A stretch of 64,000 bases of DNA from a virus (IMGVR_UViG_3300005821_000002:32487-96486); one strand, 5' to 3'. Counted from the stretch's first letter, positions 3,568 to 58,322 are shown. The notes: generated by a model not told the origin, from the sequence alone. Numbers and translations: made by a program.

Positions 3568-3734
3568 TATAATTCATCTTCAATTAGCTCAACAACGTCT
3601 TCTGCTACTTTTAGAAAATCTTCTTGTACTGAGGGGTCTAACATTTCCCACAATACCCACTCATTATAACCTTGGTTAGCCATATCATAATCATAGATAA
3701 CCTCAGCAACTGCTTCTGTTAAATGCTCAAGCAT
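3567..3734 (-). CDS. 55-residue acidic protein
   Basis: Short gene starting MLEHLTEAVAEVIYDYDMA and ending VELIEDEL. GGAGGG lies 5-6 bases before the ATG, one base after the stop of the upstream gene, and the stop overlaps the start of the RNase H gene. The tight fit and strong ribosome site argue that it is real. Mostly acidic helix; function unknown. Confidence 0.6.
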   Translation of the reverse strand: MLEHLTEAVAEVIYDYDMANQGYNEWVLWEMLDPSVQEDFLKVAEDVVELIEDEL

Positions 3735-3735
3735 A

Positions 3736-3933
3736 CTACCCTCCGAGCACGGACTCCAGCTTATCGTTTAGGAATGAAGCCAGAGCTTCCATATTATTTC
3801 TTACATCTGGATGTTCATTATAATCAAAAGTCATATCAATAGCGTCTGCTGATCCTTTGATATAAAAGCGAACACGAATCTTATCAGCAAATAACCAAGC
3901 CTTCTCAACCATATACTTCTCTACTTTAGCCAT
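3736..3933 (-). CDS. small hypothetical protein
   Basis: 65 residues from the ATG at 3933 (MAKVEKYMVEKAWLF), with GGGAG upstream and an 8-base overlap with the methyltransferase stop. The frame is open to 3981 but that extension lies inside the preceding gene. Looks like a small alpha/beta domain (KIRVRFYIKGSADAIDMTFDY). Function unknown. Confidence 0.55.
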   Translation of the reverse strand: MAKVEKYMVEKAWLFADKIRVRFYIKGSADAIDMTFDYNEHPDVRNNMEALASFLNDKLESVLGG

Positions 3934-5671: not shown

Positions 5672-5700
5672 AAAAAAGCGAAGTCATTTAGCTTCGCTTT
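5672..5700 (-). terminator. rho-independent terminator of the tRNA operon
   Basis: A perfect 9-bp stem (AAAGCGAAG / CTTCGCTTT, 8-base loop) is followed on the minus strand by TTTTTT. It lies just after tRNA-Lys(TTT) and just before the primase promoter, separating the RNA island from the downstream operon. Confidence 0.88.
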
Positions 5701-5703
5701 AGG

Positions 5704-5776
5704 TGCTTGCAGAGGGGCTCGAACCCCCGACCTTCGGTTTAAAAGACCGTTGCTCTTCCGGCTGAGCTATGCAAGC
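5704..5776 (-). tRNA. tRNA-Lys (anticodon TTT, reads AAA)
   Basis: Cloverleaf on the minus strand: acceptor GCTTGCA/TGCAAGC, D-arm GCTC/GAGC, anticodon loop CTTTTAA, T-arm with loop TTCGAGC. The 27:43 pair is A:A. CC but not CCA is encoded. Last tRNA of the island, followed by a terminator. Its 5' base overlaps the stop of the methyltransferase gene. Confidence 0.95.
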
Positions 5777-6246
5777 TAAAAAACTAATTGAGTACCTATC
5801 TCTAGGTCCATTGTATACCAAGCGCTGTAGAACCATGGTGCCTTCTTCCCCGTAAAGTCTATTCTACGTGATGGGAAGATAACTTCCACACCACTCAACT
5901 GTGCTCTACATTCTTTTGCACCTAACTTTGTTATAGGTAGCAACATGCACCAAGGTTTTCCCAACTCATTTGCTCTACGTAGAAACTTCTTAGCTATAGA
6001 GAATGGTGGGTTGGTTACAATGATATCATAGGATGGTGGTTCATCAACAAGAAAATCTCCATCCCATTCTACTACATCGTAACCACCTGCGATAAGGTGT
6101 GCTATCAACACACCAGAACCAGGTGCACAATCCCACAGCTTTTTGTCTGTGGGTAGATACGGAACCAATACCTCCAAAGCCTCTGGAGGAGTCCATATAT
6201 CGTCGTAACTTCCTCTTTTACTGTAATCCTTCAATACTTCTAACAT
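5776..6246 (-). CDS. N6-adenine-type DNA methyltransferase
   Basis: 156 residues, small for the family. IWTPPEALEVLVPYL, then SAM motif WDCAPGSG (38-45), then catalytic TNPPF (78-82), then a short C-terminal segment. There is no obvious separate target-recognition domain. The gene fits exactly between two tRNAs: its ATG begins with the A of the encoded CCA of tRNA-Lys(CTT), and its stop overlaps the first base of tRNA-Lys(TTT). No good ribosome site is visible (GGTGG only). Paralogous to the fragment at 1-177. Confidence 0.8.
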   Translation of the reverse strand: MLEVLKDYSKRGSYDDIWTPPEALEVLVPYLPTDKKLWDCAPGSGVLIAHLIAGGYDVVEWDGDFLVDEPPSYDIIVTNPPFSIAKKFLRRANELGKPWCMLLPITKLGAKECRAQLSGVEVIFPSRRIDFTGKKAPWFYSAWYTMDLEIGTQLVF

Positions 6247-6322
6247 GGTGCCACCGGTAGGACTCGAACCTACAACCTTTGGTTTAAGAGACCACTGCTC
6301 TCACCCGTTGAGCTACGGAGGC
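6246..6322 (-). tRNA. tRNA-Lys (anticodon CTT, reads AAG)
   Basis: Acceptor GCCTCCG/CGGTGGC with one T:T mismatch, anticodon loop CTCTTAA, T-loop TTCGAGT. CCA is encoded, and its final A is also the A of the downstream methyltransferase start codon. Confidence 0.93.
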
Positions 6323-6326
6323 ATAA

Positions 6327-6415
6327 GACGGCGACGTTCCCACAACGCCTTCGTGCAACCTAAGTGAGTGGCCTACTCACAGCTACACAGTTGGATTCGA
6401 ACCAACATCTCCGTC
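6327..6415 (-). ncRNA. inter-tRNA structured spacer with T-arm-like hairpin
   Basis: 89 bases between tRNA-Val and tRNA-Lys(CTT), bracketed by a 5-bp stem GACGG/CCGTC (6327-6331 with 6411-6415). Inside are three hairpins: GTTGG/CCAAC with a 7-base TTCGAAT loop (a perfect T-arm), GTGAGT/ACTCAC, and CGTT/AACG. The T-arm comes first in transcript order, so this is not a cloverleaf. It may be a tRNA remnant or a separate small RNA. Confidence 0.4.
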
Positions 6416-6418
6416 AGG

Positions 6419-6492
6419 TGGGTCTGGCTGGGCTCGAACCAGCGACCTCTTTCTTGTAAGGAAAGCGCTCTAACCAACTGAGCTACACACCC
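6419..6492 (-). tRNA. tRNA-Val (anticodon TAC, reads GTA)
   Basis: Acceptor GGGTGTG/CAGACCC (one G:G mismatch), D-arm GCTC/GAGC, anticodon stem CTTTC/GAAAG with loop CTTACAA, T-loop TTCGAGC. One base from the zinc-ribbon gene stop. Confidence 0.94.
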
Positions 6493-6493
6493 A

Positions 6494-6685
6494 TTATCCT
6501 GTTAATCTACCTTTACCATCATTCTGATAGAAACCCTTACCCTTAAATACGACGTTAGGAGGATTGAACACTCTCCTAATACTTATTTTACCACATTCAG
6601 GGCATTTTGTCAAGCCCAAATCCAAGTGTTCTTCGGATATGAACTCATACAAACAATCTTCACATTTGTAATCATATATTCCCAT
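6494..6685 (-). CDS. FmdB-like zinc-ribbon protein
   Basis: 63 residues beginning MGIYDYKCEDCLYEF, the hallmark N-terminus of the FmdB/CxxC putative regulatory family; CEDC (8-11) and CPEC near residue 28 form the zinc site. GAGGT precedes the ATG. Members are small nucleic-acid-associated proteins of uncertain role. A promoter-like sequence for the tRNAs downstream is embedded in its codons (6585-6613). Confidence 0.75.
   Translation of the reverse strand: MGIYDYKCEDCLYEFISEEHLDLGLTKCPECGKISIRRVFNPPNVVFKGKGFYQNDGKGRLTG
6585..6613 (-). promoter_or_regulatory. near-consensus sigma-70 promoter inside the zinc-ribbon gene
   Basis: Minus strand TTGACA (6613-6608), 17-base spacer ending TGTGG, TAAAAT (6590-6585): 11 of 12 consensus positions. 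It would drive tRNA-Val and both tRNA-Lys genes. It shares the GTGG spacer end with the other promoters of this genome. Confidence 0.65.
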
Positions 6686-6698
6686 AGTTACCTCAAGG

Positions 6699-6770
6699 AG
6701 CGAGTAGGTGGATTTGAACCACCGACATTCTGCTTGGAAGGCAGACGTTCTACCACTGAACTATACCCGC
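6699..6770 (-). tRNA. tRNA-Gly (anticodon TCC, reads GGA)
   Basis: Acceptor GCGGGTA/TACTCGC, anticodon stem TCTGC/GCAGA with loop CTTCCAA, T-arm GGTGG/CCACC with loop TTCAAAT. Discriminator T followed by CC. Confidence 0.95.
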
Positions 6771-6775
6771 TAAGG

Positions 6776-6846
6776 TGGGAACACAGGGAATCGAACCCTG
6801 CTCGTCGGCTTGAAAGGCCGGTGTCCTGCCGATAGACGATGCTCCC
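6776..6846 (-). tRNA. tRNA-Glu (anticodon TTC, reads GAA)
   Basis: Acceptor GGGAGCA/TGTTCCC, anticodon loop CTTTCAA, T-loop TTCGATT. Its 5' end abuts the stop codon of the small gene upstream. CC encoded, no CCA. Confidence 0.95.
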
Positions 6847-7023
6847 TTATGAAACCATACTCTGAATGCTATCTAATAAGTCATTCAGTTCATCGTACTT
6901 GTCTATTAAACTTTCTACAGCCTCATATGCATTTTTATCATCTACTATAAAATCTACTGGTGAGCCTGGTCCATTTAATAAATCTACGATATCTTGTAGT
7001 TCTGCTTCTATACTTATACCCAT
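6847..7023 (-). CDS. small acidic protein in tRNA island
   Basis: 58 residues from the ATG at 7023. AAGGAG sits 7 bases upstream of this ATG and too close to the alternative ATG at 7029. Acidic and helical (EAELQDIVDLLN, YDELNDLLDSIQSM). The stop abuts tRNA-Glu(TTC). Function unknown. Confidence 0.6.
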   Translation of the reverse strand: MGISIEAELQDIVDLLNGPGSPVDFIVDDKNAYEAVESLIDKYDELNDLLDSIQSMVS

Positions 7024-7041
7024 AATCATACTCCTTTTAGG

Positions 7042-7113
7042 TGATTCTACGGAGATTTGAACTCCGGTCTGTACTTTGAGAGAGTACTGTCCTAACCACT
7101 AGACGATAGAACC
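7042..7113 (-). tRNA. tRNA-Glu (anticodon CTC, reads GAG)
   Basis: Acceptor GGTTCTA/TAGAATC, anticodon stem GTACT/AGTAC with loop CTCTCAA, T-arm CGGAG/CTCCG with loop TTCAAAT. Confidence 0.95.
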
Positions 7114-7117
7114 AAGG

Positions 7118-7189
7118 TAGGCCCCCCACGAATTGAACGTGGCTCCTTCCCCTTATAAGAGGGATGCTTCCCCGATCAGCTTGAGGCCC
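7118..7189 (-). tRNA. tRNA-Ile (anticodon TAT, reads ATA)
   Basis: Acceptor GGGCCTC/GGGGCCT (includes G:T pairs), anticodon stem TCCCT/GGGGA with loop CTTATAA, T-arm CCACG/CGTGG. The anticodon stem matches that of tRNA-Ile(GAT) nearby, so the two may be duplicates. Its first 14 bases overlap the end of the HNH gene. Confidence 0.93.
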
Positions 7190-7457
7190 ATCGTGTTTCA
7201 TTATTTTCTACTCGTTTTATCCAATTACAATTTGCACAAAGTAGTTGATAGTCTTCACTTTCTCCCCTACAAATTCTACGAGCTATATAATCGGAACTAT
7301 GAGCAAGTATTTCTTTACCACCGCCACCTTTTATATGATCTATCTGTAATGCTCTTGGATCGGAAAATCCACATCTTGTGCATATACCACCCAAAAGCTC
7401 TATCGCTTTCTGTCTATTTTTTCGACGGTATTCTCTACCCCATTGTTTTTTATTCAT
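7176..7457 (-). CDS. HNH endonuclease
   Basis: 93 residues from the ATG at 7457. Zinc and catalytic elements in order: ICTRCG, LQIDHIKGGG (the DH pair of the HNH core), LLCANCNWIK. It probably makes nicks or breaks as a free-standing homing-type nuclease. The ATG lies 3 bases past the CC end of tRNA-Ile(GAT) without a clear ribosome site, and the stop lies 14 bases inside tRNA-Ile(TAT). The overlap means one transcript cannot give both an intact message and that tRNA. The frame is open to 7484 inside the upstream tRNA. Confidence 0.8.
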   Translation of the reverse strand: MNKKQWGREYRRKNRQKAIELLGGICTRCGFSDPRALQIDHIKGGGGKEILAHSSDYIARRICRGESEDYQLLCANCNWIKRVENNETRWASS

Positions 7458-7460
7458 AGG

Positions 7461-7533
7461 TGGACCAAAATGGAGTCGAACCATTGGCCTTCCCCTTATC
7501 AGAGGGATGCTCTAACCACTGAGCTACTGGTCC
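7461..7533 (-). tRNA. tRNA-Ile (anticodon GAT, reads ATC)
   Basis: Acceptor GGACCAG/TTGGTCC, D-arm GCTC/GAGC, anticodon stem TCCCT/GGGGA with loop CTGATAA, T-arm with loop TTCGACT. Confidence 0.95.
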
Positions 7534-7944
7534 TTATATTACATGCCATTCAGCTTTCCTTGCTCTCTTAGCTGTCCAACATCCTCCAGACTTTATATGA
7601 TCTGAAGTGTGACAGTGATAACAGTAATCAAACTTCATTCCTTTATATCCTTCTGGATAATCTGCTACCACAATACAATGAACAATGTCAGATGCTCTAG
7701 CTATCTTTAGATTTCTCTGCTTAAAACCACCTTCCCACCGTGGTATAGCTGGAAGATAAATCTCTTTTTCCAATCCTAGTTTATTGGCCTCTTCCTCAGC
7801 CCATATATCTATACCACCAAGATGACATCCACCACTGACAAGAATATCATCAGGAGACAATAGAGAACGTATTATTTCTCTTGCCTTTGCCTCTGTTTCA
7901 GGCGTAAACTTTCTTGCCTCATGACCAACTATTCCTACTCTCAT
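7534..7944 (-). CDS. SLOG/Rossmann-type nucleotide-binding protein with Cys/His tail
   Basis: 136 residues. MRVGIVGHEARKF, then ILVSGGCHLGGIDIWAEEEA, then FKQRNLKIARASDIVHCIV match the SLOG superfamily (DUF2493/YpsA-like), which binds nucleotides or nucleotide derivatives. The C-terminus adds a likely zinc cluster (YCYHCHTSDH, GGCW). AAGGAG precedes the ATG. The stop abuts tRNA-Ile(GAT). SLOG proteins can be sensors or enzymes in phage conflict systems; the ligand is unknown here. Confidence 0.65.
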   Translation of the reverse strand: MRVGIVGHEARKFTPETEAKAREIIRSLLSPDDILVSGGCHLGGIDIWAEEEANKLGLEKEIYLPAIPRWEGGFKQRNLKIARASDIVHCIVVADYPEGYKGMKFDYCYHCHTSDHIKSGGCWTAKRARKAEWHVI

Positions 7945-7959
7945 TGTATCTCCTTAAGG

Positions 7960-8031
7960 CACGGGTACTCGGATTCGAACCAAGACCATAGGCTTAGAAC
8001 ACCTTTATGCTATCCTTTACACCATACCCGC
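7960..8031 (-). tRNA. tRNA-Arg (anticodon TCT, reads AGA)
   Basis: Acceptor GCGGGTA/TACCCGT (terminal G:T), D-stem GTGT/GCAT, anticodon loop GTTCTAA, T-loop TTCGAAT, discriminator G. Confidence 0.92.
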
Positions 8032-8036
8032 TTAGG

Positions 8037-8108
8037 TGTGTCCAGTGGGGATTGAACCCACGACCCTCTGCTCTTCAGACAGATGCTCTACCACTGAGCT
8101 ACAGACAC
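8037..8108 (-). tRNA. tRNA-Phe (anticodon GAA, reads TTC)
   Basis: Acceptor GTGTCTG/TGGACAC, anticodon stem TCTGT/GCAGA with loop CTGAAGA, T-arm GTGGG with loop TTCAATC. The linker to tRNA-Arg is only 5 bases (CCTAA). Confidence 0.94.
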
Positions 8109-8116
8109 ATAAAACC

Positions 8117-8187
8117 GAGGGCTTATGCTTATCATCTAGAATGTGACCACTCAGTTTACTGCTGGAAGTCAGACAGCAGAAGCCCTC
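8117..8187 (-). ncRNA. closed inter-tRNA structured spacer (71 nt)
   Basis: Lies between tRNA-Leu(TAA) and tRNA-Phe. Perfect 8-bp terminal stem GAGGGCTT/AAGCCCTC (8117-8124 with 8180-8187) plus an internal 6-bp hairpin CTGCTG/CAGCAG. No anticodon arm or T-arm is recognisable. The stem ends one base from the encoded CCA of tRNA-Leu. Confidence 0.45.
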
Positions 8188-8188
8188 T

Positions 8189-8274
8189 TGGTGCCAACAG
8201 CAGGGATCGAACCTGCACTCCCGAAGGAAACTGGTTTTAAGCCAGTCGTGTCTGCCAAATTCCACCATGTCGGC
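8189..8274 (-). tRNA. tRNA-Leu (anticodon TAA, reads TTA)
   Basis: Class II tRNA with long variable arm. Acceptor GCCGACA/TGTTGGC, anticodon stem ACTGG/CCAGT with loop CTTAAAA, T-loop TTCGATC. CCA is encoded. Confidence 0.95.
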
Positions 8275-8278
8275 ATAA

Positions 8279-8363
8279 GGTGAGAAGGGTTTACTCTGAG
8301 TATTCGTCTGACTATCGGACTTTCCCCTAACAGGTATAGTCTCCTGCGTAAAGCGTTCTCACC
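8279..8363 (-). ncRNA. closed inter-tRNA structured spacer (85 nt)
   Basis: Between tRNA-Met and tRNA-Leu(TAA). Terminal stem GGTGAGAA/TTCTCACC (8 bp, perfect), then nested TTTAC/GTAAA and GACTAT/ATAGTC helices, giving a long rod with internal loops. No coding frame and no tRNA arms seen. Confidence 0.45.
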
Positions 8364-8369
8364 TTAAGG

Positions 8370-8443
8370 TAGCGGGGAGGGGATTCGAACCCCTGGTTTC
8401 CAGCTTATGAGGCTAGTGACTTGGGCCGCTAGTCTACCCCGCA
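8370..8443 (-). tRNA. tRNA-Met (anticodon CAT), initiator-like features
   Basis: Anticodon stem CTAGC/GCTGG with loop CTCATAA, T-arm AGGGG/CCCCT with loop TTCGAAT. Taking TGCGGGG as the 5' strand leaves a T:T mismatch at 1:72 and an A11:T24 pair, both initiator traits, but the three G:C pairs of the initiator anticodon stem are missing. A lysidine-modified Ile tRNA is also possible. Confidence 0.85.
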
Positions 8444-8447
8444 ATGA

Positions 8448-8500
8448 TGGACACCTACATCGAACCACAAGGAGCGACCCTGCTTACGTTTCAGTGTCCA
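8448..8500 (-). ncRNA. closed inter-tRNA minimal tRNA-like spacer (53 nt)
   Basis: Between tRNA-Pro and tRNA-Met. Perfect 7-bp terminal stem TGGACAC/GTGTCCA, as long as a tRNA acceptor, with a TTCGATG stretch 10-16 bases before the 3' strand where a T-loop would sit. D and anticodon arms are missing. A shrunken tRNA remnant or a small tRNA mimic. Confidence 0.4.
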
Positions 8501-8503
8501 AGG

Positions 8504-8577
8504 TCGGAATGACAGGATTTGAACCTGTGGCCCCTCGGACCCAAACCGAGTGCTCTTCCAAGCTGAGCTACACTCCG
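8504..8577 (-). tRNA. tRNA-Pro (anticodon TGG, reads CCA)
   Basis: Acceptor CGGAGTG/CATTCCG, D-arm GCTC/GAGC, anticodon stem CTCGG/CCGAG with loop TTTGGGT, T-arm ACAGG/CCTGT. Confidence 0.95.
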
Positions 8578-8681
8578 ATGTACTTTTTTGATAGAGCAGA
8601 AAGACATAATAAAAACTGCTTGGGCCTAACTCATACAAGTCAGGGTTCCACCACTTGTTTTTTAGAGAAACAAGAAACTCA
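8578..8681 (-). other. inter-tRNA spacer with several hairpins, not end-closed
   Basis: 104 bases between tRNA-Ala and tRNA-Pro. Contains CTTGTTT/AAACAAG (7 bp), CTTG/CAAG and AGCAG/CTGCT hairpins. Unlike its neighbours, its two ends are not complementary. No coding frame supported. Confidence 0.3.
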
Positions 8682-8683
8682 GG

Positions 8684-8754
8684 TGGAGCTTCAGAGGATC
8701 GAACTCTGATAACAGCATTGCAAGTGCTGGGTAATACCGTTATACGAAAGCCCC
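8684..8754 (-). tRNA. tRNA-Ala (anticodon TGC, reads GCA)
   Basis: Acceptor GGGGCTT/AAGCTCC, anticodon stem CAGCA/TGCTG with loop CTTGCAA, T-arm CAGAG/CTCTG with loop TTCGATC. Confidence 0.95.
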
Positions 8755-8759
8755 AAAGG

Positions 8760-8841
8760 TACCGAAGGTGAGAGTCGAACTCACAAGCCCGTGGGCACTG
8801 ACTTCTAAGGCCAGCGTGTTTGCCATTTTCACCACTTCGGC
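8760..8841 (-). tRNA. tRNA-Leu (anticodon TAG, reads CTA)
   Basis: Class II with long variable arm. Acceptor GCCGAAG/CTTCGGT, anticodon stem CTGGC/GTCAG with loop CTTAGAA, T-arm GTGAG/CTCAC. Confidence 0.94.
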
Positions 8842-8844
8842 ATG

Positions 8845-8922
8845 TTGAGAACTAGGGTGCACCACGGAATCTAACCGTCTCTGCTAGGCTGTCGCCCACT
8901 AACAAGTCGTGCTAGTTCTCAA
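8845..8922 (-). ncRNA. closed inter-tRNA structured spacer (78 nt)
   Basis: Between tRNA-Tyr and tRNA-Leu(TAG). Perfect 11-bp terminal stem TTGAGAACTAG/CTAGTTCTCAA (8845-8855 with 8912-8922). Near the 3' side of the transcript is ACGG-TTAGATT-CCGT, a T-arm-like hairpin with a 7-base loop. The stem starts 4 bases from one tRNA and ends 3 from the other. Confidence 0.5.
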
Positions 8923-8924
8923 GG

Positions 8925-8996
8925 TGGATGTTAGAAGAATCGAACTTCTCTCCGTCGGTTTACAGCCGAGTGCCGTCCCCAGACGACCCAACATCC
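8925..8996 (-). tRNA. tRNA-Tyr (anticodon GTA, reads TAC), short variable loop
   Basis: Acceptor GGATGTT/AACATCC, anticodon loop CTGTAAA, T-arm AGAAG/CTTCT. The variable region is short, whereas bacterial tRNA-Tyr is normally class II with a long arm. First tRNA after the internal promoter at 9009-9037. Confidence 0.9.
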
Positions 8997-9008
8997 AATG
9001 TTTTCCTT

Positions 9009-9037
9009 ATTATATCACATATTACTAGAAATGTCAA
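9009..9037 (-). promoter_or_regulatory. consensus sigma-70 promoter inside the tRNA island
   Basis: Minus strand TTGACA (9037-9032), 17-base spacer, TATAAT (9014-9009); 12 of 12 consensus positions. Lies between the tmRNA 3' end and tRNA-Tyr, giving the left half of the island its own start. Confidence 0.9.
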
Positions 9038-9064
9038 GCCCAATATTAGTGCCATATCATTCCT

Positions 9065-9315
9065 TGGTGGAGATGGGGGGAGTTGAACCCCCGTCCAAAT
9101 AGTCTTGGTTCACATGTTACTGGCGTTCCGTTTACTGTCGGTCAGTCTTACTGGGTGTAACTAGGTGTAGCTTCTACCGCTACTGGGAGACTGAATAAAG
9201 TTTCAGCCAGACTCACTCTGCTAAAGAGTGCTGATGCTAAACTATTATCGTTTGCATTTGTGTTAGGGTGCCAGAATGCTTAGCGTCCTCTATCTGTCGA
9301 AGCCATTTCATCCCC
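9065..9315 (-). ncRNA. ssrA: transfer-messenger RNA (tmRNA)
   Basis: 251 bases, compact beside the 363-base E. coli molecule. The 5' end GGGGATGAAATGGCTTCGAC and the 3' end (GGGGGTTCAACTCCCCC, then CATCTCC-A-CCA) form the alanine-tRNA-like domain; CCA is encoded. The mRNA-like part begins GCAAACGATAATAGTTTAGC, read as A-N-D-N-S-L-A, a normal tag start. The frame then continues S-A-L-F-S without the usual stop; the first in-frame stop is 35 codons after the resume codon. tmRNA tags and releases stalled ribosomes together with SmpB, which is not encoded here. Confidence 0.93.
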
Positions 9316-9319
9316 AAGG

Positions 9320-9391
9320 AGCACCTAAGAGGATTCGAACCTCCAACTCTTGGTCCGTAGCCAAGCGGTTTATCCGTTAGCCTACAGGTGC
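9320..9391 (-). tRNA. tRNA-Arg (anticodon ACG, reads CGT family)
   Basis: Acceptor GCACCTG/TAGGTGC, anticodon stem CTTGG/CCAAG with loop CTACGGA, T-arm GGAGG with loop TTCGAAT. A34 would need host TadA to become inosine. Confidence 0.94.
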
Positions 9392-9396
9392 TTAGG

Positions 9397-9470
9397 GGCC
9401 CATGATGAGAATCGAACTCATAACCTAGCGATTACAAAACGCTTGCTCTGCCTAATTGAGCTACACGGGC
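9397..9470 (-). tRNA. tRNA-Thr (anticodon TGT, reads ACA)
   Basis: Acceptor GCCCGTG/CATGGGC, D-arm GCTC/GAGC, anticodon loop TTTGTAA with a weak T:T pair at 31:39, T-arm ATGAG/CTCAT. The discriminator appears to be C, which is unusual. Confidence 0.92.
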
Positions 9471-9475
9471 TTAGG

Positions 9476-9560
9476 CGGAATGTGTAGGATTCGAACCTAC
9501 GTGGGTGTTACCCCAACTCCCTTAGCAGGGGAGCACTTTAAACCACTCAGTCAACATTCC
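9476..9560 (-). tRNA. tRNA-Ser (anticodon GCT, reads AGC)
   Basis: Class II. Acceptor GGAATGT/ACATTCC, anticodon stem CTCCC/GGGAG with loop CTGCTAA, long variable arm, discriminator G as expected for serine. Confidence 0.95.
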
Positions 9561-9568
9561 GTAATACT

Positions 9569-9802
9569 CTATCCAGTTGAACGAACAAATGTAATTACAT
9601 TATCCGGTATATCAGCTGGATGTTCATACGATTTATTAGAGCGTGTGCGGTGAGTGAAAGGGAAGAACCCAGTGTCACTCCTACCGATACTCACTCCTCT
9701 AAACTTACCACCCTGTTGTGGATATGTACCTTCTCCCACATCAAGGTTATCTGGTGCTTTTTCTACTAGTTTTACACCACCAACAAGACTTTCTTCTGTC
9801 AT
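9569..9802 (-). CDS. hypothetical protein
   Basis: 77 residues (MTEESLVGGVKLVEKAPDNL), polar with TYPQQGGKFRGVSIG in the middle. GGTG lies about 4 bases before the ATG, and the upstream gene ends 3 bases before it. Fills the space between tRNA-Ser(GCT) and the basic-protein gene. No family recognised. Confidence 0.5.
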   Translation of the reverse strand: MTEESLVGGVKLVEKAPDNLDVGEGTYPQQGGKFRGVSIGRSDTGFFPFTHRTRSNKSYEHPADIPDNVITFVRSTG

Positions 9803-9805
9803 ATA

Positions 9806-10015
9806 TCACCAATTCTTCCAGTTACATATACTTTCCCAATGTAATAATCCTCTACGATGAGGGTCTCTCCAAGCACGACGACGAGCTTTACTCAAACGTC
9901 GTTTGTAGTAACGACCCTCTCCTCTACTACCCCATCTACAACAAATGCTTCCATTTACTACTTGAATTTTCTTACCAAACTCTTTCCATGTTCTACGGTA
10001 ATTCTCTTTATGCAT
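9806..10015 (-). CDS. small basic protein
   Basis: 69 residues from the ATG at 10015 (MHKENYRRTWKEFGKK), with GGAG 7-8 bases upstream. The frame opens at 10057 but no ribosome site supports that start. Very rich in Arg/Lys/Trp (RRLSKARRRAWRDPHRRGL), so it may bind nucleic acid. Function unknown. Confidence 0.55.
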   Translation of the reverse strand: MHKENYRRTWKEFGKKIQVVNGSICCRWGSRGEGRYYKRRLSKARRRAWRDPHRRGLLHWESICNWKNW

Positions 10016-10211
10016 GACAACTCCGTAACCAGGATTCTGTTTTATCCCTACATCCATCTATGCCACAACCACACCCTTAGCCCTGCTCACCAGCTAGGTA
10101 AATTTGTGTTGCTCCCTCGGTAGTATAACGGGTTTCCCCTTCCACCTTAAGCAGAGGAGTCCTGAGTTTCCTCTGACGGCATGAAGCCATCAGCGTAGGG
10201 TCAAGTTGTCA
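10016..10211 (-). other. non-coding stretch with stacked hairpins before tRNA-Cys
   Basis: 196 bases without a supported gene. Contains CAGAGGA/TCCTCTG (7 bp) and CTGACGGC/GCCATCAG (8 bp with one G:T), enclosed by partly complementary ACCTTAAGC and GCGTAGGGT. It resembles the structured spacers elsewhere in the island but is not cleanly end-closed. A tRNA-D-arm-like string on the plus strand near 10119 does not develop into a tRNA. Confidence 0.3.
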
Positions 10212-10286
10212 TGGAGGCAAGAGTGGGAATCGAACCCACCACTCGACGTTTTGCAGACGCCACCCTAACCAATCGGGATTCTCGCC
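10212..10286 (-). tRNA. tRNA-Cys (anticodon GCA, reads TGC)
   Basis: Acceptor GGCGAGA/TCTTGCC, anticodon stem GGCGT/ACGTC with loop CTGCAAA, T-arm GTGGG/CCCAC. CCA encoded. Abuts the stop codon of the transglycosylase gene. Confidence 0.94.
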
Positions 10287-10952
10287 CTATTCAAAGTACG
10301 GTAGCCAATAATATAATACTTTATCAGCATATACAGGCCCACCAAAGTATAAACAAACATCGGCATTCAAGCTTGTCCAACCACAATTGTATGCAGCTAA
10401 AGCTCTGTGCATATCCTTCTCAGGATTTTCTTCTTCATTGTTAATGTTAGCATTTAACATATACATGCCCTGCCAAATATTCCATCTTGGTTGCCAAAGA
10501 TATTCTTCTGCCAGTGTCCACGGCTTCACAGCTATCTGCATAAGACCGATGGTACTATACCCATCATCCGACATCTCATTTGGGTTGCAAGCACTTTCCT
10601 GAGCCATAACAGCAAGTACAATATTAGGATCAATGGGAAACTCATCATACCACCCTTCAACAAGGGGTCGATAATATTCACATAACCTTACTACAATTTC
10701 AGCTGTTACTTCTTCTCCGGTTGGTCGTGGAGTTGATGTTTTACTCGGCACAACCGTTGGTACTTTTTCTGGTGTTGGTATTGATAGTGGTTCTACTATT
10801 CGCGGCGGATACTCTGTTGAAGTTACCACCGGTGTCGGAGTTATTGTGGGAAGTTCAGGTTCAGGTATATCATTAGGTATACTATATATCCCACACATAA
10901 CGCTGATTACTAGCATAACCACAAGAAAATTCTTGCTAGATGATTTCAGCAA
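10287..10952 (-). CDS. lytic transglycosylase (SLT domain) with membrane anchor
   Basis: 221 residues. A basic N-terminus and hydrophobic segment (9-23) give a signal anchor; a Pro/Thr-rich linker follows (about 30-85); then the lysozyme-like domain with MAQESACNP (catalytic Glu), GLMQIA and ALAAYNCG. It would cleave the glycan strands of peptidoglycan from the outer side of the membrane. The first codon is TTG, chosen because AGGGGG lies 5-6 bases before it and the later ATGs fall inside the anchor. With the holin candidate at 12599 this is the probable lysis function. Confidence 0.85.
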   Translation of the reverse strand: MLKSSSKNFLVVMLVISVMCGIYSIPNDIPEPELPTITPTPVVTSTEYPPRIVEPLSIPTPEKVPTVVPSKTSTPRPTGEEVTAEIVVRLCEYYRPLVEGWYDEFPIDPNIVLAVMAQESACNPNEMSDDGYSTIGLMQIAVKPWTLAEEYLWQPRWNIWQGMYMLNANINNEEENPEKDMHRALAAYNCGWTSLNADVCLYFGGPVYADKVLYYWLPYFE

Positions 10953-10992
10953 ATATTCCCCCTATATTATATTGTCCGTACCATACCAAAGG

Positions 10993-11080
10993 CGGAGAGT
11001 GCAGGGGTCAAACCTGCAAGGCAGTTACGCTCGGCGGGTTTCAAATCCGCTGCCGTCGTCAACTATCGGCTTGACTCTCC
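10993..11080 (-). tRNA. tRNA-Ser (anticodon TGA, reads TCA)
   Basis: Class II. Acceptor GGAGAGT/ACTCTCC, anticodon stem GCGGA/CCCGC with loop TTTGAAA, long variable arm, T-arm GCAGG/CCTGC, discriminator G. Confidence 0.94.
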
Positions 11081-11086
11081 GAAATG

Positions 11087-11117
11087 TGGGGAAGTTAGGT
11101 TCCGACCTCCCTTCCCA
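11087..11117 (-). other. nested stem-loop spacer
   Basis: TGGGGAAG pairs with CTTCCCA around an inner AGGT-TCCG-ACCT hairpin, filling the 41-base gap between tRNA-Leu(CAA) and tRNA-Ser(TGA). Confidence 0.35.
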
Positions 11118-11122
11118 ATAGG

Positions 11123-11204
11123 TGCCGATAACAGGAGTCGAACCTGTACGCTGTTAGGCGGTTGCTTTTGAGGCAACTGTGTCTACCTCTTCCACCATAT
11201 CGGC
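11123..11204 (-). tRNA. tRNA-Leu (anticodon CAA, reads TTG)
   Basis: Class II. Acceptor GCCGATA/TATCGGC, anticodon stem GTTGC/GCAAC with loop CTCAAAA, T-arm ACAGG/CCTGT. Confidence 0.95.
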
Positions 11205-11298
11205 AATTGTCTTACCGTACCCATAGGCAATACTAGGCTTGTAGGCCCTATGGGTATTGCTCAATCATGAGGTATATAGTCATGAAAGAGTGCCTAGG
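11205..11298 (-). other. structured inter-tRNA spacer with competing hairpins
   Basis: 94 bases between tRNA-Asp and tRNA-Leu(CAA). ACCCATAGG (11219-11227) pairs perfectly with CCTATGGGT (11247-11255). GCAATAC and GTATTGC, sharing bases with that helix, can form a second stem. A TCATGA...TCATGA hairpin follows. The ends are not complementary. Confidence 0.35.
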
Positions 11299-11374
11299 CG
11301 GTCTTGAAGGGATTTGAACCCTCGATCTCTTGCTTGACAGGCAAGCGTGTTAGGCCGGACTACACCACAAGACC
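11299..11374 (-). tRNA. tRNA-Asp (anticodon GTC, reads GAC)
   Basis: Acceptor GGTCTTG/CAAGACC, anticodon stem CTTGC/GCAAG with loop CTGTCAA, T-arm GAGGG with loop TTCAAAT, discriminator G. Confidence 0.95.
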
Positions 11375-11378
11375 ATAA

Positions 11379-11530
11379 GATGTATCATAGCTGGTTTCCC
11401 CACCCAGCACCCGTACAAACCTGACCATTTTTCGGTTTTTTAGTCTGACCGATACAGACTTGTGACCTTTCTGAAAAGGTTGTCAGGATGAATTCTAAGC
11501 CCAAGTGTTTCAGACACTTTATGATACATC
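11379..11530 (-). ncRNA. closed multi-hairpin inter-tRNA RNA (152 nt)
   Basis: Between tRNA-His and tRNA-Asp. Perfect 11-bp terminal stem GATGTATCATA/TATGATACATC. Inside: GCTGG/CCAGC, CCTGAC/GTCAGG enclosing TCGGT/ACCGA and ACCTTT/AAAGGT, and AGTGT/ACACT. This gives a multi-way junction. No coding frame. The stem ends 2 bases from the encoded CCA of tRNA-His and 5 bases from tRNA-Asp. Confidence 0.5.
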
Positions 11531-11531
11531 A

Positions 11532-11607
11532 TGGGGTGTCCAGAGGGGTTCGAACCCTCGAATGTGGATTCACAGTCCAGTGTTTTTCCGACTAAACTAT
11601 GGACACC
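11532..11607 (-). tRNA. tRNA-His (anticodon GTG, reads CAC)
   Basis: Acceptor GTGTCCA/TGGACAC with an encoded extra G at -1 facing C73, the histidine identity pair. Anticodon loop CTGTGAA, T-arm GAGGG with loop TTCGAAC. CCA encoded. Confidence 0.95.
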
Positions 11608-11612
11608 ATGTA

Positions 11613-11776
11613 TGTACCGGTACCCCTCTTACTCACCGTATTACGATGATATAACTACCTCTGGAGACCCAGTAGGGGCAGGTAGGCGGTATTTTCTCTT
11701 CCTTATTCCTAGCTGGTCTTAATCAGAATAAGGCGTAGTCTCCCACGTTCTGTCCATGCCAGCGGACACCGGTACA
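11613..11776 (-). ncRNA. closed inter-tRNA RNA, possible pseudoknot (164 nt)
   Basis: Between tRNA-Gln(TTG) and tRNA-His. Perfect 9-bp terminal stem TGTACCGGT/ACCGGTACA. Inside, an 8-bp hairpin CCTTATTC/GAATAAGG, and crossing helices CCCCT:AGGGG (11623-11627 with 11674-11678) and CTACCT:AGGTAG (11655-11660 with 11680-11685). The crossing helices are short and may be chance. Confidence 0.45.
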
Positions 11777-11779
11777 AGG

Positions 11780-11850
11780 TAGCTAAGGGAGGATTCGAAC
11801 CGCCATCCTAGGCTTCAAAGGCCCATGTCCTGCCGTTAGACGACTTAGCT
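11780..11850 (-). tRNA. tRNA-Gln (anticodon TTG, reads CAA)
   Basis: Acceptor AGCTAAG/CTTAGCT, anticodon stem TGGGC/GCCTA with loop CTTTGAA, T-loop TTCGAAT with one C:T mismatch in the T-stem. Confidence 0.92.
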
Positions 11851-11855
11851 ATAGG

Positions 11856-11926
11856 TTGTAGAGGAAGGATTCGAACCTCCATTGACTGATTCAGAGTCAG
11901 CAGTACTGCCGTTATACTACTCTACA
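11856..11926 (-). tRNA. tRNA-Gln (anticodon CTG, reads CAG)
   Basis: Acceptor TGTAGAG/CTCTACA, anticodon stem GCTGA/TCAGT with loop CTCTGAA, T-loop TTCGAAT. Five bases from tRNA-Gln(TTG). Confidence 0.94.
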
Positions 11927-11944
11927 AGGTAAAGGCGTATTCCA

Positions 11945-12042
11945 ACCCCTTTATTCCGCCTATAAGTCCTGTCTGTATTCACAGCGTTTTCCTTGAAACT
12001 AGACCTGACTAGAATTCCAAGGACGTAAGGGGTACAGGACTT
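11945..12042 (-). ncRNA. pseudoknotted inter-tRNA RNA candidate
   Basis: Between tRNA-Trp and tRNA-Gln(CTG). AAGTCCTGT (11964-11972) pairs perfectly with ACAGGACTT (12034-12042); ACCCCTT (11945-11951) pairs perfectly with AAGGGGT (12027-12033). The order of the strands makes the helices cross, an H-type pseudoknot of 9 and 7 bp with two strands directly adjacent. A TCCTTG/CAAGGA hairpin lies in the large loop. Confidence 0.45.
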
Positions 12043-12079
12043 GGCTCATAACCTTTCCCCACTCTTTCGAGTGAGAAGG

Positions 12080-12150
12080 CACGGGATGAAGGATTCGAAC
12101 CTCCTACAGTAACGTTTTGGAGACGCACTCGCTCCCAAGCTGTATCCCGC
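12080..12150 (-). tRNA. tRNA-Trp (anticodon CCA, reads TGG)
   Basis: Acceptor GCGGGAT/ATCCCGT, anticodon loop CTCCAAA, T-loop TTCGAAT, discriminator G. The anticodon is normal, so no UGA reassignment is implied. Confidence 0.93.
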
Positions 12151-12157
12151 ATATAGG

Positions 12158-12230
12158 CAGGCAAGACAGGATTCGAACCTGTAACCTTCTCCTTAACAGG
12201 GAGTTGCTCTGCCGATTGAGCTACTCGCCT
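12158..12230 (-). tRNA. tRNA-Asn (anticodon GTT, reads AAC)
   Basis: Acceptor AGGCGAG/CTTGCCT, D-arm GCTC/GAGC, anticodon loop CTGTTAA, T-arm ACAGG/CCTGT, discriminator G. First gene of the tRNA island, 11 bases after the promoter -10 box. Confidence 0.94.
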
Positions 12231-12240
12231 ATATGTACAC

Positions 12241-12269
12241 ATTATACCACAAAATCTACACTTTGTCAA
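12241..12269 (-). promoter_or_regulatory. consensus sigma-70 promoter of the tRNA island
   Basis: Minus strand TTGACA (12269-12264), 17-base spacer ending GTGG, TATAAT (12246-12241); 12 of 12 positions. Transcription would start a few bases before tRNA-Asn. Confidence 0.92.
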
Positions 12270-15075: not shown

Positions 15076-15460
15076 TTTTGTTAATCCTTGCAATTCCTTT
15101 TCTAAACATTTTCTCCATATCCTCTTCGGAGAGAGGTTCAATCCTTCCTATACGCTCAAGAAAAGCACTATCTGTTAGCTCTCCTCCTAGTATAAAAGAT
15201 ATACGATCTGTGACATCTTTAAATATCTGTGAAACTGTTAATCGGTGAATACTCAATACTCTTGCTATTTCTGAGTAACTATATCCAGCAGATACAGACC
15301 ATATGACATCATTTTCTCTTTGGGTAATGGTGTTATTCTCGACCATATCTGATATTGTTTTCTCTATTATTATAGCATTATTATATGAGTCGCTGTTGAT
15401 ATTACCCCTTTCCTTTATATAGTGTATCTGTCTTATGTATTCTCCGATAATCCAACTCAT
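15068..15460 (-). CDS. sigma-70 region 4-like / HTH transcription regulator
   Basis: 130 residues. ITQRENDVIWSVSAGYSYSE, then IARVLSIHRLTVSQIFKDV, is a typical region 4 or LuxR-type helix-turn-helix with the recognition helix near residues 70-85. No region 2 is present, so it is not a complete sigma factor. It may bind -35 elements or operators and help switch from the minus-strand to the plus-strand gene blocks; that role is inference. Confidence 0.65.
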   Translation of the reverse strand: MSWIIGEYIRQIHYIKERGNINSDSYNNAIIIEKTISDMVENNTITQRENDVIWSVSAGYSYSEIARVLSIHRLTVSQIFKDVTDRISFILGGELTDSAFLERIGRIEPLSEEDMEKMFRKGIARINKNE

Positions 15461-15461
15461 C

Positions 15462-16196
15462 TTAATATTCCAGACCTATTCCCACTTCCATCTCTCCGTA
15501 ACAAAAGTCACGATAGAAACAGTTTCTACAATTATAACCAGTAACACGATGAAAATATTCATCCTTTAAATTACTAACAACACGATCAATAGTACTTGCC
15601 AAATCATTTCTCATGTAATCATTTAATGGAACAGGAATAATATCACCAGTATTCAAATGTCCATAACAAACCGTTGGACGTTCACCATACATTTTCTCAT
15701 AAGCCCAACTGTACAGATAAAATTGAAAATCCTGTAATTGATACTTAGTTGGTCTACGAGCACCTGTCTTCCAATCATATACATTTGAACCCGATATTTT
15801 ATCAATCTTACCTAAAATAACTACGTTATTTAATGAGGTCTGTTCCCAAGGCAATTCAAAGAAAAGTTCTGTCTTCTGTGGTTCCTCGGTTGAAAATTCA
15901 GGCACAATCTTAGTGTAGTAATTACCCAACATCTTGGTGAAGCTCTTGGGAGGTTTGGGCACCTGTTTGATTTCTGCAAATTCATATTCAGGTGTCATTC
16001 TCTCTGCCCATTGAGCTACTGACCATTTTACAGCATCCTTACCATTATCGAACTCTTCAATAGCCTCATGTACAATACTACCAAACACTACATGATTGGA
16101 TAGCTTGGCTTTACCTTTATGAAACGTACGATAATAAAATCTTTTCGGACATTCCAAATAATCCTTGATTGATGAGGCACTTAGTCTAAGTTTCAT
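15462..16196 (-). CDS. Cas4/RecB-family PD-(D/E)XK nuclease with Fe-S cluster
   Basis: 244 residues. Cys16 in YLECPKRFYYR and Cys223, Cys226, Cys232 in the C-terminal NCRNCFYRDFC give the four Fe-S ligands. Catalytic elements: His43 (IVHEAIE), Asp132 (GKID), Asp141 and Lys143 (DWKTG), then a QxxxY-like helix. Likely a 5'-3' or end-processing exonuclease used in recombination or replication. No CRISPR components are present. Confidence 0.85.
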   Translation of the reverse strand: MKLRLSASSIKDYLECPKRFYYRTFHKGKAKLSNHVVFGSIVHEAIEEFDNGKDAVKWSVAQWAERMTPEYEFAEIKQVPKPPKSFTKMLGNYYTKIVPEFSTEEPQKTELFFELPWEQTSLNNVVILGKIDKISGSNVYDWKTGARRPTKYQLQDFQFYLYSWAYEKMYGERPTVCYGHLNTGDIIPVPLNDYMRNDLASTIDRVVSNLKDEYFHRVTGYNCRNCFYRDFCYGEMEVGIGLEY

Positions 16197-54899: not shown

Positions 54900-57731
54900 A
54901 TGACTGTTTATAGTGATTTCATCGAAATAACAATAGATGGAACAGATGTGTCTGATTACGTTATAACGTATCAACGTAGTGAGTCTCTTTGTGAACCTGG
55001 TCAGGTATTTACATTAACAATGACCAGAAAGAAACTCGATGATACCTTTGTTAACATAGAGACTGCTGATCCTATAATCATCAAAGAGAAGTATGGTGGT
55101 TCACCAACGACAGTACTAAAGGGGTTCGTTACAAAAGTTGAAATCAATGCTGAGAGAGCACTGATGACAATTCATGGTGCGGATAAATATATTATGCTTG
55201 CAGATTACTTTATTCCAGAGCGCTTGGAAACAAGTGGACAAACGGTAGCATACTGGATAGAATATATTTGCAACGAGGCTGGCTTAGATGTTCAGTTTGA
55301 TGTCTCTCCTTATGCGGTTACGCAAGGGGCTGGAGATACAGAGGGTACTCCCCTTGGTATGCAGAGTGCATTACAATCACTGAAATTACTTGAGCGGAAA
55401 GGAACTTGTTATACTCGTTATGATTCTAGTTCAGACAAAATCTTAGTTTATAGATTAACTACTTCTCAACCAAAAGTAAATGTTAATTCTAGCAATTTAG
55501 TTACAATAGATAGATCAGTAGCAACAAAAACAACAAGAAACGTTGTGAAAGTATGGGGTGGTTATAGATATGATTGGTTAACTGGACAAGAAGTATCATA
55601 CAACGCTACCGCCAGAGCAGATATGCCTGAAATGGTAGTAGATCAAACAACTCTTATTTCTAGTCCTGAAATTAGAACATTTACATTTGCTAACATAGTA
55701 GCACAAAGAGTTCTTGCAACTACAGCGGAGTTGGATGATTTGGCTCTCTGTGAGTGTGCGGGACTTTACCCAGATGTGGAAATTGGTGATTGGATATATA
55801 TTTCAATCAGTCAAGGTGAATTTGACTACACAAGAGAGCGTCAAGTTACAAGTATAGATGTTTCTGTGGACACAAACGGAGCTAGAACTACGTTTACAGT
55901 AGGGGAAAAGTGTCCCAGGGTCTCTGTAAGCCCTCCAGTAGTGCCAATCTATGTCACAGATACTAAAACCGGCGTAGGCGTCTCCTGGGACGCAGGAGAG
56001 AGCTTCCTGCCCTCAAATACAGGGCTTACAGCATCTGGTGAACTAAGTGGTAAGAGTATTGCTGTAAATAACTACGGTAGACAGATGGTAGTGACCGTAG
56101 CTGGTCTACATAAGAGATATAGTGGGCTTTCTACATGGGTAGATGTAACAAATTTACCTGACCCAACAAATGAATCAAATGATCTAAGTCCACTAGGGGT
56201 TACGGATTTAGAAATGATGAAAGTTGTTGATGAACCTCTAAGACCTTACACATTTCATATGATTGCGTCAGGTTGTCATCCTTCAGGTTGGTTTAGAAGT
56301 TATGTCTTTACAACCGAGGATTACGGTTATAATTGGAAAACTACTCAGATGTGGGCACCTGCGATGTCCGGTAGTATATCAGCGTCAGGATATCAAGAAC
56401 ATCAATATGCTCCATCTGGTAAAGTATTCGATGTGTGGACACATGACATGACGGCATCGTTGGGAAACGCTGTAACTGTTTTAGTGTCATCACCATATGT
56501 AGAGGTAGATGAGGAAGACCCAGCTACTATTTACTTTGCTGAGTTTACATCTGGTGGTGAAGTTTGGATGGGTTATTGGGATGGTACGACTAGAAATCGA
56601 GAACAGCAAGTGACAACATCTGGTTTTATTGTAGGTGTTAAACAGTGGTCATGTCCAACTAATAGAGATATAGCATATACGGCTATTGTATCCAATGATG
56701 GTCCTACTTCTGCATATACAGGGGGACAAACATATGTATGGAAAACTATTGATGGTGGAGATAACTGGACTGAAATACACAATGAATTACTAATAGCAGA
56801 CTCGTCTTACGATTTCATTTCATCTTATACGGTTAATTTTGATACATCATCATCAGAAAGTGAAGTAAGGGTAGCATTTAATTGTTTTTATATGACTTCC
56901 ACAGTAAATGTTATTTATGCAAAAGCCAGATTTGTAAAAAGTAATCCAACAGGAAGTACAAGTTATACAGATGACACCAGTTCAAGTATAGCTTTGGAAT
57001 ATTCAGCATATATAGGCGCTGGAGAATATTTTAATAATTATAGTCACAATAATAGCTATGTGAATCAAAACTTTAACCCTGCTTGGAAAAATGCAGTTAT
57101 AGATGGTGTTACTTGGGCAGGAACAGGAGTTTATGGACAGGTTAGACGATCATCCGATAATGCATGGATAGATACACTTCAATGTGCTGTAGTGGTGAAA
57201 TTGAACTTTTCTACTGAAACAGTTACAGAATTCAATAAGACTGAAGCATTAACTGGTTCTTTAATTAGTGCGTCACCAAGAGCAGTATTGTGTTCAGCAA
57301 GAAGTACAAATGGTATATATATTTATTCAATAGGAGGTCTTGCATTAGTATCATCATCTGCTTGGACGACAGAAGGTTGGGCTTACGTAAATCCTTGGAA
57401 TGATTTTAATGGTTATGATAGTTTTTCAAAAGTTTTCATGGGATGGAAAGGAGCACCTGATTCTACATATCGTACAGTAGACACAGATGCTGATTATGAT
57501 GATACAGACTTTGTTCCATCTACAGCTGGGGGAAGTAACAGAGAAGGTGCATGTCAAGTGAATAAACAATTTGATAGTGCAATAAAGCATTGGTGTGTAA
57601 GTTCTGCATCGTTTCAAGGAGACCCGGACGGCTTTTGTTATTCAGAAGATGGTATAACTTGGACACAACACTGGGACAAGGTTCCTGATGTTTTCAATCT
57701 ATATGACTTTGCTTGGAGAACTTGGGAATAA
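54900..57731 (+). CDS. tail hub fused to Asp-box beta-propeller
   Basis: 943 residues with GTGAGGA upstream. Residues 1-345 repeat the hub plan of the preceding gene (TDVSDYVITYQRSESLCEPG; GFVTKVEINAERALMTIHGA). Residues 355-943 contain several Asp-box-like motifs (TEDYGYNWKTT, TIDGGDNWTEI, SEDGITWTQHW) of sialidase-type propellers. It may bind or cleave surface glycans. The catalytic Arg triad of true sialidases is not evident. Confidence 0.7.
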   Translation: MTVYSDFIEITIDGTDVSDYVITYQRSESLCEPGQVFTLTMTRKKLDDTFVNIETADPIIIKEKYGGSPTTVLKGFVTKVEINAERALMTIHGADKYIMLADYFIPERLETSGQTVAYWIEYICNEAGLDVQFDVSPYAVTQGAGDTEGTPLGMQSALQSLKLLERKGTCYTRYDSSSDKILVYRLTTSQPKVNVNSSNLVTIDRSVATKTTRNVVKVWGGYRYDWLTGQEVSYNATARADMPEMVVDQTTLISSPEIRTFTFANIVAQRVLATTAELDDLALCECAGLYPDVEIGDWIYISISQGEFDYTRERQVTSIDVSVDTNGARTTFTVGEKCPRVSVSPPVVPIYVTDTKTGVGVSWDAGESFLPSNTGLTASGELSGKSIAVNNYGRQMVVTVAGLHKRYSGLSTWVDVTNLPDPTNESNDLSPLGVTDLEMMKVVDEPLRPYTFHMIASGCHPSGWFRSYVFTTEDYGYNWKTTQMWAPAMSGSISASGYQEHQYAPSGKVFDVWTHDMTASLGNAVTVLVSSPYVEVDEEDPATIYFAEFTSGGEVWMGYWDGTTRNREQQVTTSGFIVGVKQWSCPTNRDIAYTAIVSNDGPTSAYTGGQTYVWKTIDGGDNWTEIHNELLIADSSYDFISSYTVNFDTSSSESEVRVAFNCFYMTSTVNVIYAKARFVKSNPTGSTSYTDDTSSSIALEYSAYIGAGEYFNNYSHNNSYVNQNFNPAWKNAVIDGVTWAGTGVYGQVRRSSDNAWIDTLQCAVVVKLNFSTETVTEFNKTEALTGSLISASPRAVLCSARSTNGIYIYSIGGLALVSSSAWTTEGWAYVNPWNDFNGYDSFSKVFMGWKGAPDSTYRTVDTDADYDDTDFVPSTAGGSNREGACQVNKQFDSAIKHWCVSSASFQGDPDGFCYSEDGITWTQHWDKVPDVFNLYDFAWRTWE

Positions 57732-58321
57732 TGGCTAGTGTATTGTGGGAAACAGACGACTCATTTGATACCATGTACATTATTTGGTCAGGGGCAGCTA
57801 CTCCTTGGCGAACTTACCTGTACGCAGATTATCAATATGTATATATATCACAAGCACCATCAATTACACGTTTGTTATTTGGAACAGCTAGTGGTATAGG
57901 AACAGCTAGTGGATGGATGGAAGAAAGAGATGTGACAAATATCTCTCCTGTTGGAGGTCATTTAGTACCATATGTATTAACACACCATCTAAATGAATGG
58001 GGAGATGCATTTTACACGGTAGCATTTGAAGCACCAACACTTATAAGTGCTTCTGGAGGGCAAGCACATCATAGTTACCACCCAGAATATACAAATAGCT
58101 GGGAAACCAAAGATCAAACATTCGGAAGAGTGGTGGACGTGGAATTTCCAAATTATTTGGAAGATTTGAGAGTATGTGTAGGAGTTTCAAATTCGGGATT
58201 TGTGAGAGTAGTACCAGTATCGCCAAGTGGTATAACGATATCTGGCTCATATTGGACAGATTGGAGTGCTATGGATAGTTCAGCAACAGTGACAGACTTA
58301 GAAGCGAGATGGATGTATTAA
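57731..58321 (+). CDS. tail-tip or fibre-associated protein
   Basis: 196 residues from the ATG at 57731 (TAATG overlap); the frame opens at 57713 inside the hub gene. Aromatic and beta-rich (TYL YADYQYVYISQAPS; SYWTDWSAMDSSATVT). Could be another propeller blade set. Function unknown. Confidence 0.55.
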   Translation: MASVLWETDDSFDTMYIIWSGAATPWRTYLYADYQYVYISQAPSITRLLFGTASGIGTASGWMEERDVTNISPVGGHLVPYVLTHHLNEWGDAFYTVAFEAPTLISASGGQAHHSYHPEYTNSWETKDQTFGRVVDVEFPNYLEDLRVCVGVSNSGFVRVVPVSPSGITISGSYWTDWSAMDSSATVTDLEARWMY

Positions 58322-58322
58322 T

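Follow-up and report, generated by a model that had tools for sequence, protein, structure and literature searches.

The spacers of phage transfer RNA (tRNA) arrays are usually regarded as filler, and the locus described here raises the question whether some of them are more than that. The array lies on the minus strand in the window, the whole stretch of 64,000 nucleotides (nt) that was analyzed (IMGVR_UViG_3300005821_000002:32487-96486), which is part of a 96,486-base-pair (bp) tailed-phage record that is possibly incomplete. Six spacers of the array begin and end with mutually complementary arms, and the original prediction described them as a family of structured RNAs that are closed at their ends and cut out by tRNA processing. 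Our analysis showed that they belong to a general architectural class of end-closed spacers and are not one RNA family. The same array also includes what looks like a gene for ribonuclease P (RNase P) RNA.

End-closed spacers between tRNA genes

The six closed spacers and their helices are listed below, with p-values from 500 dinucleotide shuffles per spacer.

8117..8187, minus strand: closed spacer tRNA-Leu(taa) to tRNA-Phe; 8-bp strict helix 8187-8180/8117-8124; p=0.006
8276..8366, minus strand: closed spacer tRNA-Met to tRNA-Leu(taa); 11-bp helix 8366-8356/8276-8286; p<0.002
8448..8500, minus strand: closed spacer tRNA-Pro to tRNA-Met; 7-bp helix 8500-8494/8448-8454; p=0.006
8845..8922, minus strand: closed spacer tRNA-Tyr to tRNA-Leu(tag); 11-bp helix 8922-8912/8845-8855; p<0.002
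11379..11530, minus strand: closed spacer tRNA-His to tRNA-Asp; 11-bp helix 11530-11520/11379-11389; p=0.000
11613..11776, minus strand: closed spacer tRNA-Gln(ttg) to tRNA-His; 9-bp helix 11776-11768/11613-11621; p<0.002

When only strict Watson-Crick pairs were counted on the minus (transcribed) strand, the perfect terminal arms of 7–11 bp that had been predicted were confirmed in all six spacers and at the same places. Shuffled spacers had been proposed as the control, and the stems of 8, 11, 7, 11, 11 and 9 bp exceeded the shuffle means of 3.3–3.6 bp in every case (p<=0.006 each). The helix of the 8276..8366 spacer extends to 19 nt at 89%. In the six spacers the 5' arm begins 0–1 nt past the tRNA end given by ARAGORN, and the 3' arm ends 1–8 nt short of the next tRNA. 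Stems of at least 7 bp were present in six of the 12 window spacers of 40–260 nt, the expectation from shuffles or swapped ends being approximately 0–0.1, and the coding spacers of the same array had no comparable terminal stems.

The arm sequences differ among all six spacers, i.e. the pairing rather than the sequence is kept, as had been proposed. The idea of a family did not hold, as the six share no sequence among themselves, with the 338 array spacers, or with known phages. The arms could also be inverted repeats acting at the DNA level, such as mobile palindromes, recombination scars or remnants of homing endonucleases, which would suit the HNH-type genes present between the tRNAs and the rearrangement of the tRNA arrays between relatives. 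However, differing arms leave no shared element, the ends are set by the tRNA positions with a strand-specific offset, and no target-site duplications were seen, although no systematic search was aimed at them. We therefore consider this origin quite unlikely.

The same layout was surveyed in viral contigs scanned for two tRNA T-arms leaving a spacer of approximately 60–90 nt, complementarity being ignored in the choice. The sample included all same-strand spacers of 40–260 nt in those loci and in four loci obtained with RNase P patterns. Any spacer that contained a T-arm or gave a relaxed ARAGORN hit was removed, leaving 298 spacers in 83 viral loci; the 60% ARAGORN setting was dropped as it flagged nearly every spacer. 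A spacer was classified as end-closed when its ends formed a helix of 7 bp or more that lay no further than 12 nt from the tRNA on either side.

Such stems were detected in 60 of the 298 spacers, compared to 4.5 in dinucleotide shuffles (maximum 9 in 40 runs) and 3.2 expected when 5' and 3' ends were swapped between spacers (maximum 7 in 60 runs). Stems of at least 9 bp (9–16 bp) were found in 25 spacers, with 0.4 expected, and 41 of the 83 viral loci had at least one closed spacer. The six spacers of the window belong to this class beyond chance. A small bacterial control, mostly of Gammaproteobacteria and Clostridia, gave four closed spacers among 48 against 1.6 in shuffles (shuffle maximum 4). 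Spacers within a locus depend on one another, the sample is biased by the T-arm and spacing requirements and the tRNA filter is heuristic, but the excess is too large for these limits to account for it. As end-closure occurs in about half of the sampled viral tRNA loci, far above chance, the gaps appear to be under selection. K-mer enrichment found no common motif among the closed spacers, only small subfamilies. One possible small family has CAGCAA just past the 5' arm (closed spacers L064 3762, L069 2135, L147 8916 and L151 6075).

The stem lengths also bear on the view that the spacers are tRNAs, either decayed or unusual, and that their terminal arms are the remaining acceptor stem. Of the six, four measure 53–91 nt, and a neighboring spacer (6323-6416) retains a tRNA T-arm. 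Stems of 9–16 bp, 25 against 0.4 expected, are nevertheless longer than the 7-bp acceptor stem; the six spacers showed neither a T-arm nor a relaxed ARAGORN hit, and Rfam gave no tRNA there up to E 5. This explanation, already disfavored, is very improbable.

In the surveyed closed spacers the helix starts at a median of 1.5 nt past the upstream tRNA, while chance stems start at 4 nt (p=1e-4). Its end lies at a median of 5 nt ahead of the next tRNA, not significantly different from the 4 nt obtained by chance, and the bases between the helix and the tRNAs are mostly A and U. We infer that the helix can lie directly against a tRNA 3' end, whereas a short stretch of leader should stay unpaired for RNase P.

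The RNase P RNA-like gene

The six listed spacers hold, but the list of closed RNAs in the original prediction omitted one gene, which has 10-bp arms and the same layout.

10013..10213, minus strand: divergent RNase P RNA; begins where tRNA-Cys ends and is closed by a 10-bp helix (P1)

The region matched RF00010 over the full model with 58.9 bits (E 2e-16) and RF00373 with E 8.5e-12. As the gathering score of class A is 100 bits, it is called a divergent homologue and not a class A member. It carries the GAGGAAA and ACAGAA cores and helices P1–P5, and P4 (AAC-U-CAGGA/UCCUG-GUU) keeps its bulged U. True relatives of the phage, found via the terminase and an exonuclease-like protein (patterns of the primase-like gene or the DNA polymerase gave none that were useful), include a syntenic array, L211, with an almost identical tRNA order. 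Helices P1, P2 and P5 covary among the homologues. Between the window and L211, four of the ten P1 pairs are changed on both sides and none is broken. P2 shows both-side changes at 2–5 of its 6 pairs in four phages, and P5 occurs as CUCC/GGAG, CUAC/GUAG, CAUC/GAUG and CACC/GGUG. By these features the region looks like an RNase P RNA-like gene, a putative ribozyme.

Two RNase P core patterns led to four further phage contigs. The second pattern had 29 hits, and exactly the four with an upstream GAGGAAA had loci with tRNAs. In L211 the RNase P RNA-like gene directly follows tRNA-Cys (RF00010, 47.3 bits), and in L203 tRNA-Cys is followed by a shorter candidate, the E-value of which was above 0.01. 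Altogether, such genes were found within the tRNA arrays of several unrelated phages (window, L005, L012, L021, L028, L203 and L211); in L012 the match ends immediately ahead of a tRNA. A cellular origin of the window gene was sought with the P4 motif in 84,980 prokaryote genomes, where the 20 hits included no RNase P gene. No mention of a phage-encoded RNase P RNA was found in the literature searched, subscription journals being mostly outside its coverage.

Two side observations concern these arrays. A small, very basic protein (MHKENYRRTWKEFGK...) is encoded at 9806-10057 (minus strand) of the window, and its start falls on the final bases of the helix that closes the RNase P RNA; it is conserved in L211 (14214-14430), has no Pfam or PHROG match, and is a possible RNA-binding partner. 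In L021, positions 9612-9801 (minus strand) of the tRNA array gave a weak match to a group I intron (32 bits, under the gathering score).

Y RNAs are closed by end pairing and are able to mimic tRNAs, so the spacers might be Y RNAs bound by Ro60 protein, or else pieces of GOLLD or ROOL RNAs. The phage L012, which also has the RNase P-like RNA, shows a weak YrlA match in its tRNA array (3688-3790) and a TROVE (Ro60-type) gene in its genome (G002 57516-58361). However, the 96-kilobase (kb) record of the window, which may be incomplete, has no TROVE gene, and the six spacers gave no YrlA, GOLLD or ROOL match, making this identity extremely unlikely.

Excised products or insulation

The array and its predicted signals are as follows.

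5702..12230, minus strand: tRNA array, 27 ARAGORN tRNAs and tRNA-Ser(TGA), i.e. 28 tRNAs
12241..12269, minus strand: promoter of the first polycistron, TTGACA-17-TATAAT, 12/12 matches, directly before the first tRNA
9009..9037, minus strand: promoter of the second polycistron, TTGACA-17-TATAAT, 12/12 matches, between the transfer-messenger RNA (tmRNA) and tRNA-Tyr
5675..5700, minus strand: terminator-like hairpin after the last tRNA
9065..9315, minus strand: tmRNA, RF00023, 77.8 bits (gathering 47)
10994-11083, minus strand: tRNA-Ser(TGA), missed by ARAGORN; Ser(tga) is called at the same position in relatives

As read from its sequence, the array is two tRNA polycistrons with perfect sigma-70 promoters. 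No promoter-like sites were found inside the closed spacers on the transcribed strand, so the closed spacers are most simply made as pieces of the two polycistrons. One weak 5-bp terminator-like match (11747-11734) lies inside a closed spacer, the number of such matches in the region being at the shuffle level. Release by tRNA processing, as originally proposed, would follow from the polycistronic array.

The closed spacers may be tRNA-punctuated domains of the transcript, separately excised and protected at their ends, an interpretation that in our judgment could go either way. The array would be transcribed as two tRNA polycistrons, and the RNA domains between the tRNAs would fold shut by their own terminal helix. 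The helix would begin right at the upstream tRNA 3' end. A few single-stranded bases, rich in A and U, would be left ahead of the next tRNA, so that RNase P would still meet an unpaired leader. Cutting of the flanking tRNAs would then free each domain as a short RNA, the ends of which, being already paired, would be shielded from exonucleases. At least some of the closed spacers would be functional small RNAs. By analogy, they would most likely serve as stable RNAs that evolve fast and act during infection, comparable to T4 species 1 and 2 (rnaC and rnaD), small RNAs beside tRNA in the phage cluster that were detected by Northern blot, appear late and have no known function (PMC9697503).

Alternatively, the helices may only insulate: they would block pairing with the neighboring tRNAs or exposure of single strands and set the processing points, and the interior would be functionless and drifting. 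Folding of the interiors was compared as z-scores with the arms removed, pseudoknots being outside the fold model; raw sense/antisense energies were dropped as confounded by strand skew. Over the surveyed closed spacers the interiors are only slightly more folded than shuffles (mean z sense -0.57, antisense -0.29, paired p=0.017). In the window the original term 'structured' fits the closing helix, which is real, but not the six interiors, which fold no better than shuffles once the arms are removed (z -0.71 to +0.56). Insulation alone thus stays a serious rival, and a helix position that depends on the flanking tRNAs agrees with it.

In L211 the Met-Leu, Tyr-Leu and His-Asp gaps are 2–3 nt, the Pro-Met gap is 33 nt and the Gln-His gap is coding; gaps of L211 that are neither short nor coding contain different RNAs. 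The His-Asp gap is end-closed in both L213 and the window (11379..11530), with sequences that are unrelated. The content thus turns over fast and the layout recurs. Such turnover between syntenic relatives would be expected of insulators, as would the arms TATAAAAACA/TGTTTTTATA common to L059, L082, L113 and L147, the interiors of which are unrelated. On the other hand, the homologous spacers L096/L113 have a closing helix changed on both sides at 3 pairs and keep their interior, and the closed spacers L110/L148 also keep theirs, so that homologous pairs point both ways. Furthermore, many gaps of the same array are only 2–5 nt long, i.e. the phage can simply do without a spacer, and the RNase P RNA of the same layout has a clear product. 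Insulation as the only function is possible, but we find it less probable than excision of the spacers as separate, end-protected domains.

Several observations weigh against such excised products. The six spacers have no homologues in the known phages collection, and thus no covariation, nor in the syntenic array of L211. The z-scores of the six interiors, from a model without pseudoknots, are near zero. In the test for RNA-level selection, G.U against A.C was 6 against 3, too few mismatches to lend support. Also, two small RNAs of other phage arrays, T4 rnaD (3-bp strict stem) and sRNA1 of Pseudomonas phage PAK_P4 (3 bp), are not end-closed.

A different RNA between tRNAs, also missing from the original list, is common to the window and a relative.

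11933..12042, minus strand: gap between tRNA-Trp and tRNA-Gln(ctg), with a pseudoknot-type RNA composed of helix 12042-12034/11972-11964, a 3' hairpin and the pairing ACCCCUU/AAGGGGU

Its orthologue in L211 (12943-13046) shares the ACCCCUU/AAGGGGU pairing and has the same layout with different helix sequences; a scan of the collection found no third copy. L211 also has three related spacers around GAUUACAUAGC (15164-15249, 15324-15401 and 15901-15992), the stems of which change together.

Further observations concern the array itself and its phage, the terminase of which matches PHROG 2. Most tRNA genes of the array (5702-12230) end in ...CCT and not CCA, and by eye those of L203 and L211 are alike. 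The spacer 6323-6416 (minus strand), with an intact T-arm and no tRNA, is probably the 3' half of a lost tRNA. In the same genome, beyond the window, L013 3626-5627 is approximately 2 kb without open reading frames of at least 80 amino acids and without an Rfam match.

Comparison with known systems

The closest precedent is T4 rnaC/rnaD, as the window spacers likewise adjoin tRNAs in a phage tRNA polycistron. The T4 RNAs have no sequence match to the window spacers in the phages collection, and the 7-bp terminal match of rnaC is only its own T-arm. PAK_P4 sRNA1, a 103-nt RNA within a tRNA array annotated from RNA-seq, is also unrelated in sequence. The presence of annotated small RNAs in these other phage tRNA arrays was counted in favor of excised products. 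GOLLD and ROOL are structured RNAs that occur in phages and prophages, frequently close to tRNA islands (PMC12286853). They are hundreds of bases long, unlike the window spacers, and had rightly been set apart, since Rfam matched neither in the window.

The 10013-10213 gene resembles class A and archaeal RNase P RNAs (RF00010, RF00373) in its cores, P1–P5 and the bulged U of P4. It differs from them in scoring below gathering, in a strongly reduced specificity domain and in being phage-encoded inside a tRNA array. The T4 study reports that host tRNAs are degraded during infection, whereas the RNase P RNA and tmRNA of the host are retained (PMC9697503). The loss of host RNA could be among the reasons for a phage to have copies of its own. 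RNase P RNA-like genes in the arrays of unrelated phages would extend the idea of phages replacing the translation machinery of their hosts, which would then include the tRNA-maturing ribozyme.

Tentatively, phage tRNA arrays may be a general platform for small end-sealed RNAs, with tRNAs as cutting signals, helices as seals, and in some phages an RNase P RNA added from the same transcript. If this were true, the array would help to process itself while host RNA is destroyed. Many small RNAs that lack annotation may lie in the closed gaps, which are situated much like the two unexplained stable RNAs of T4.

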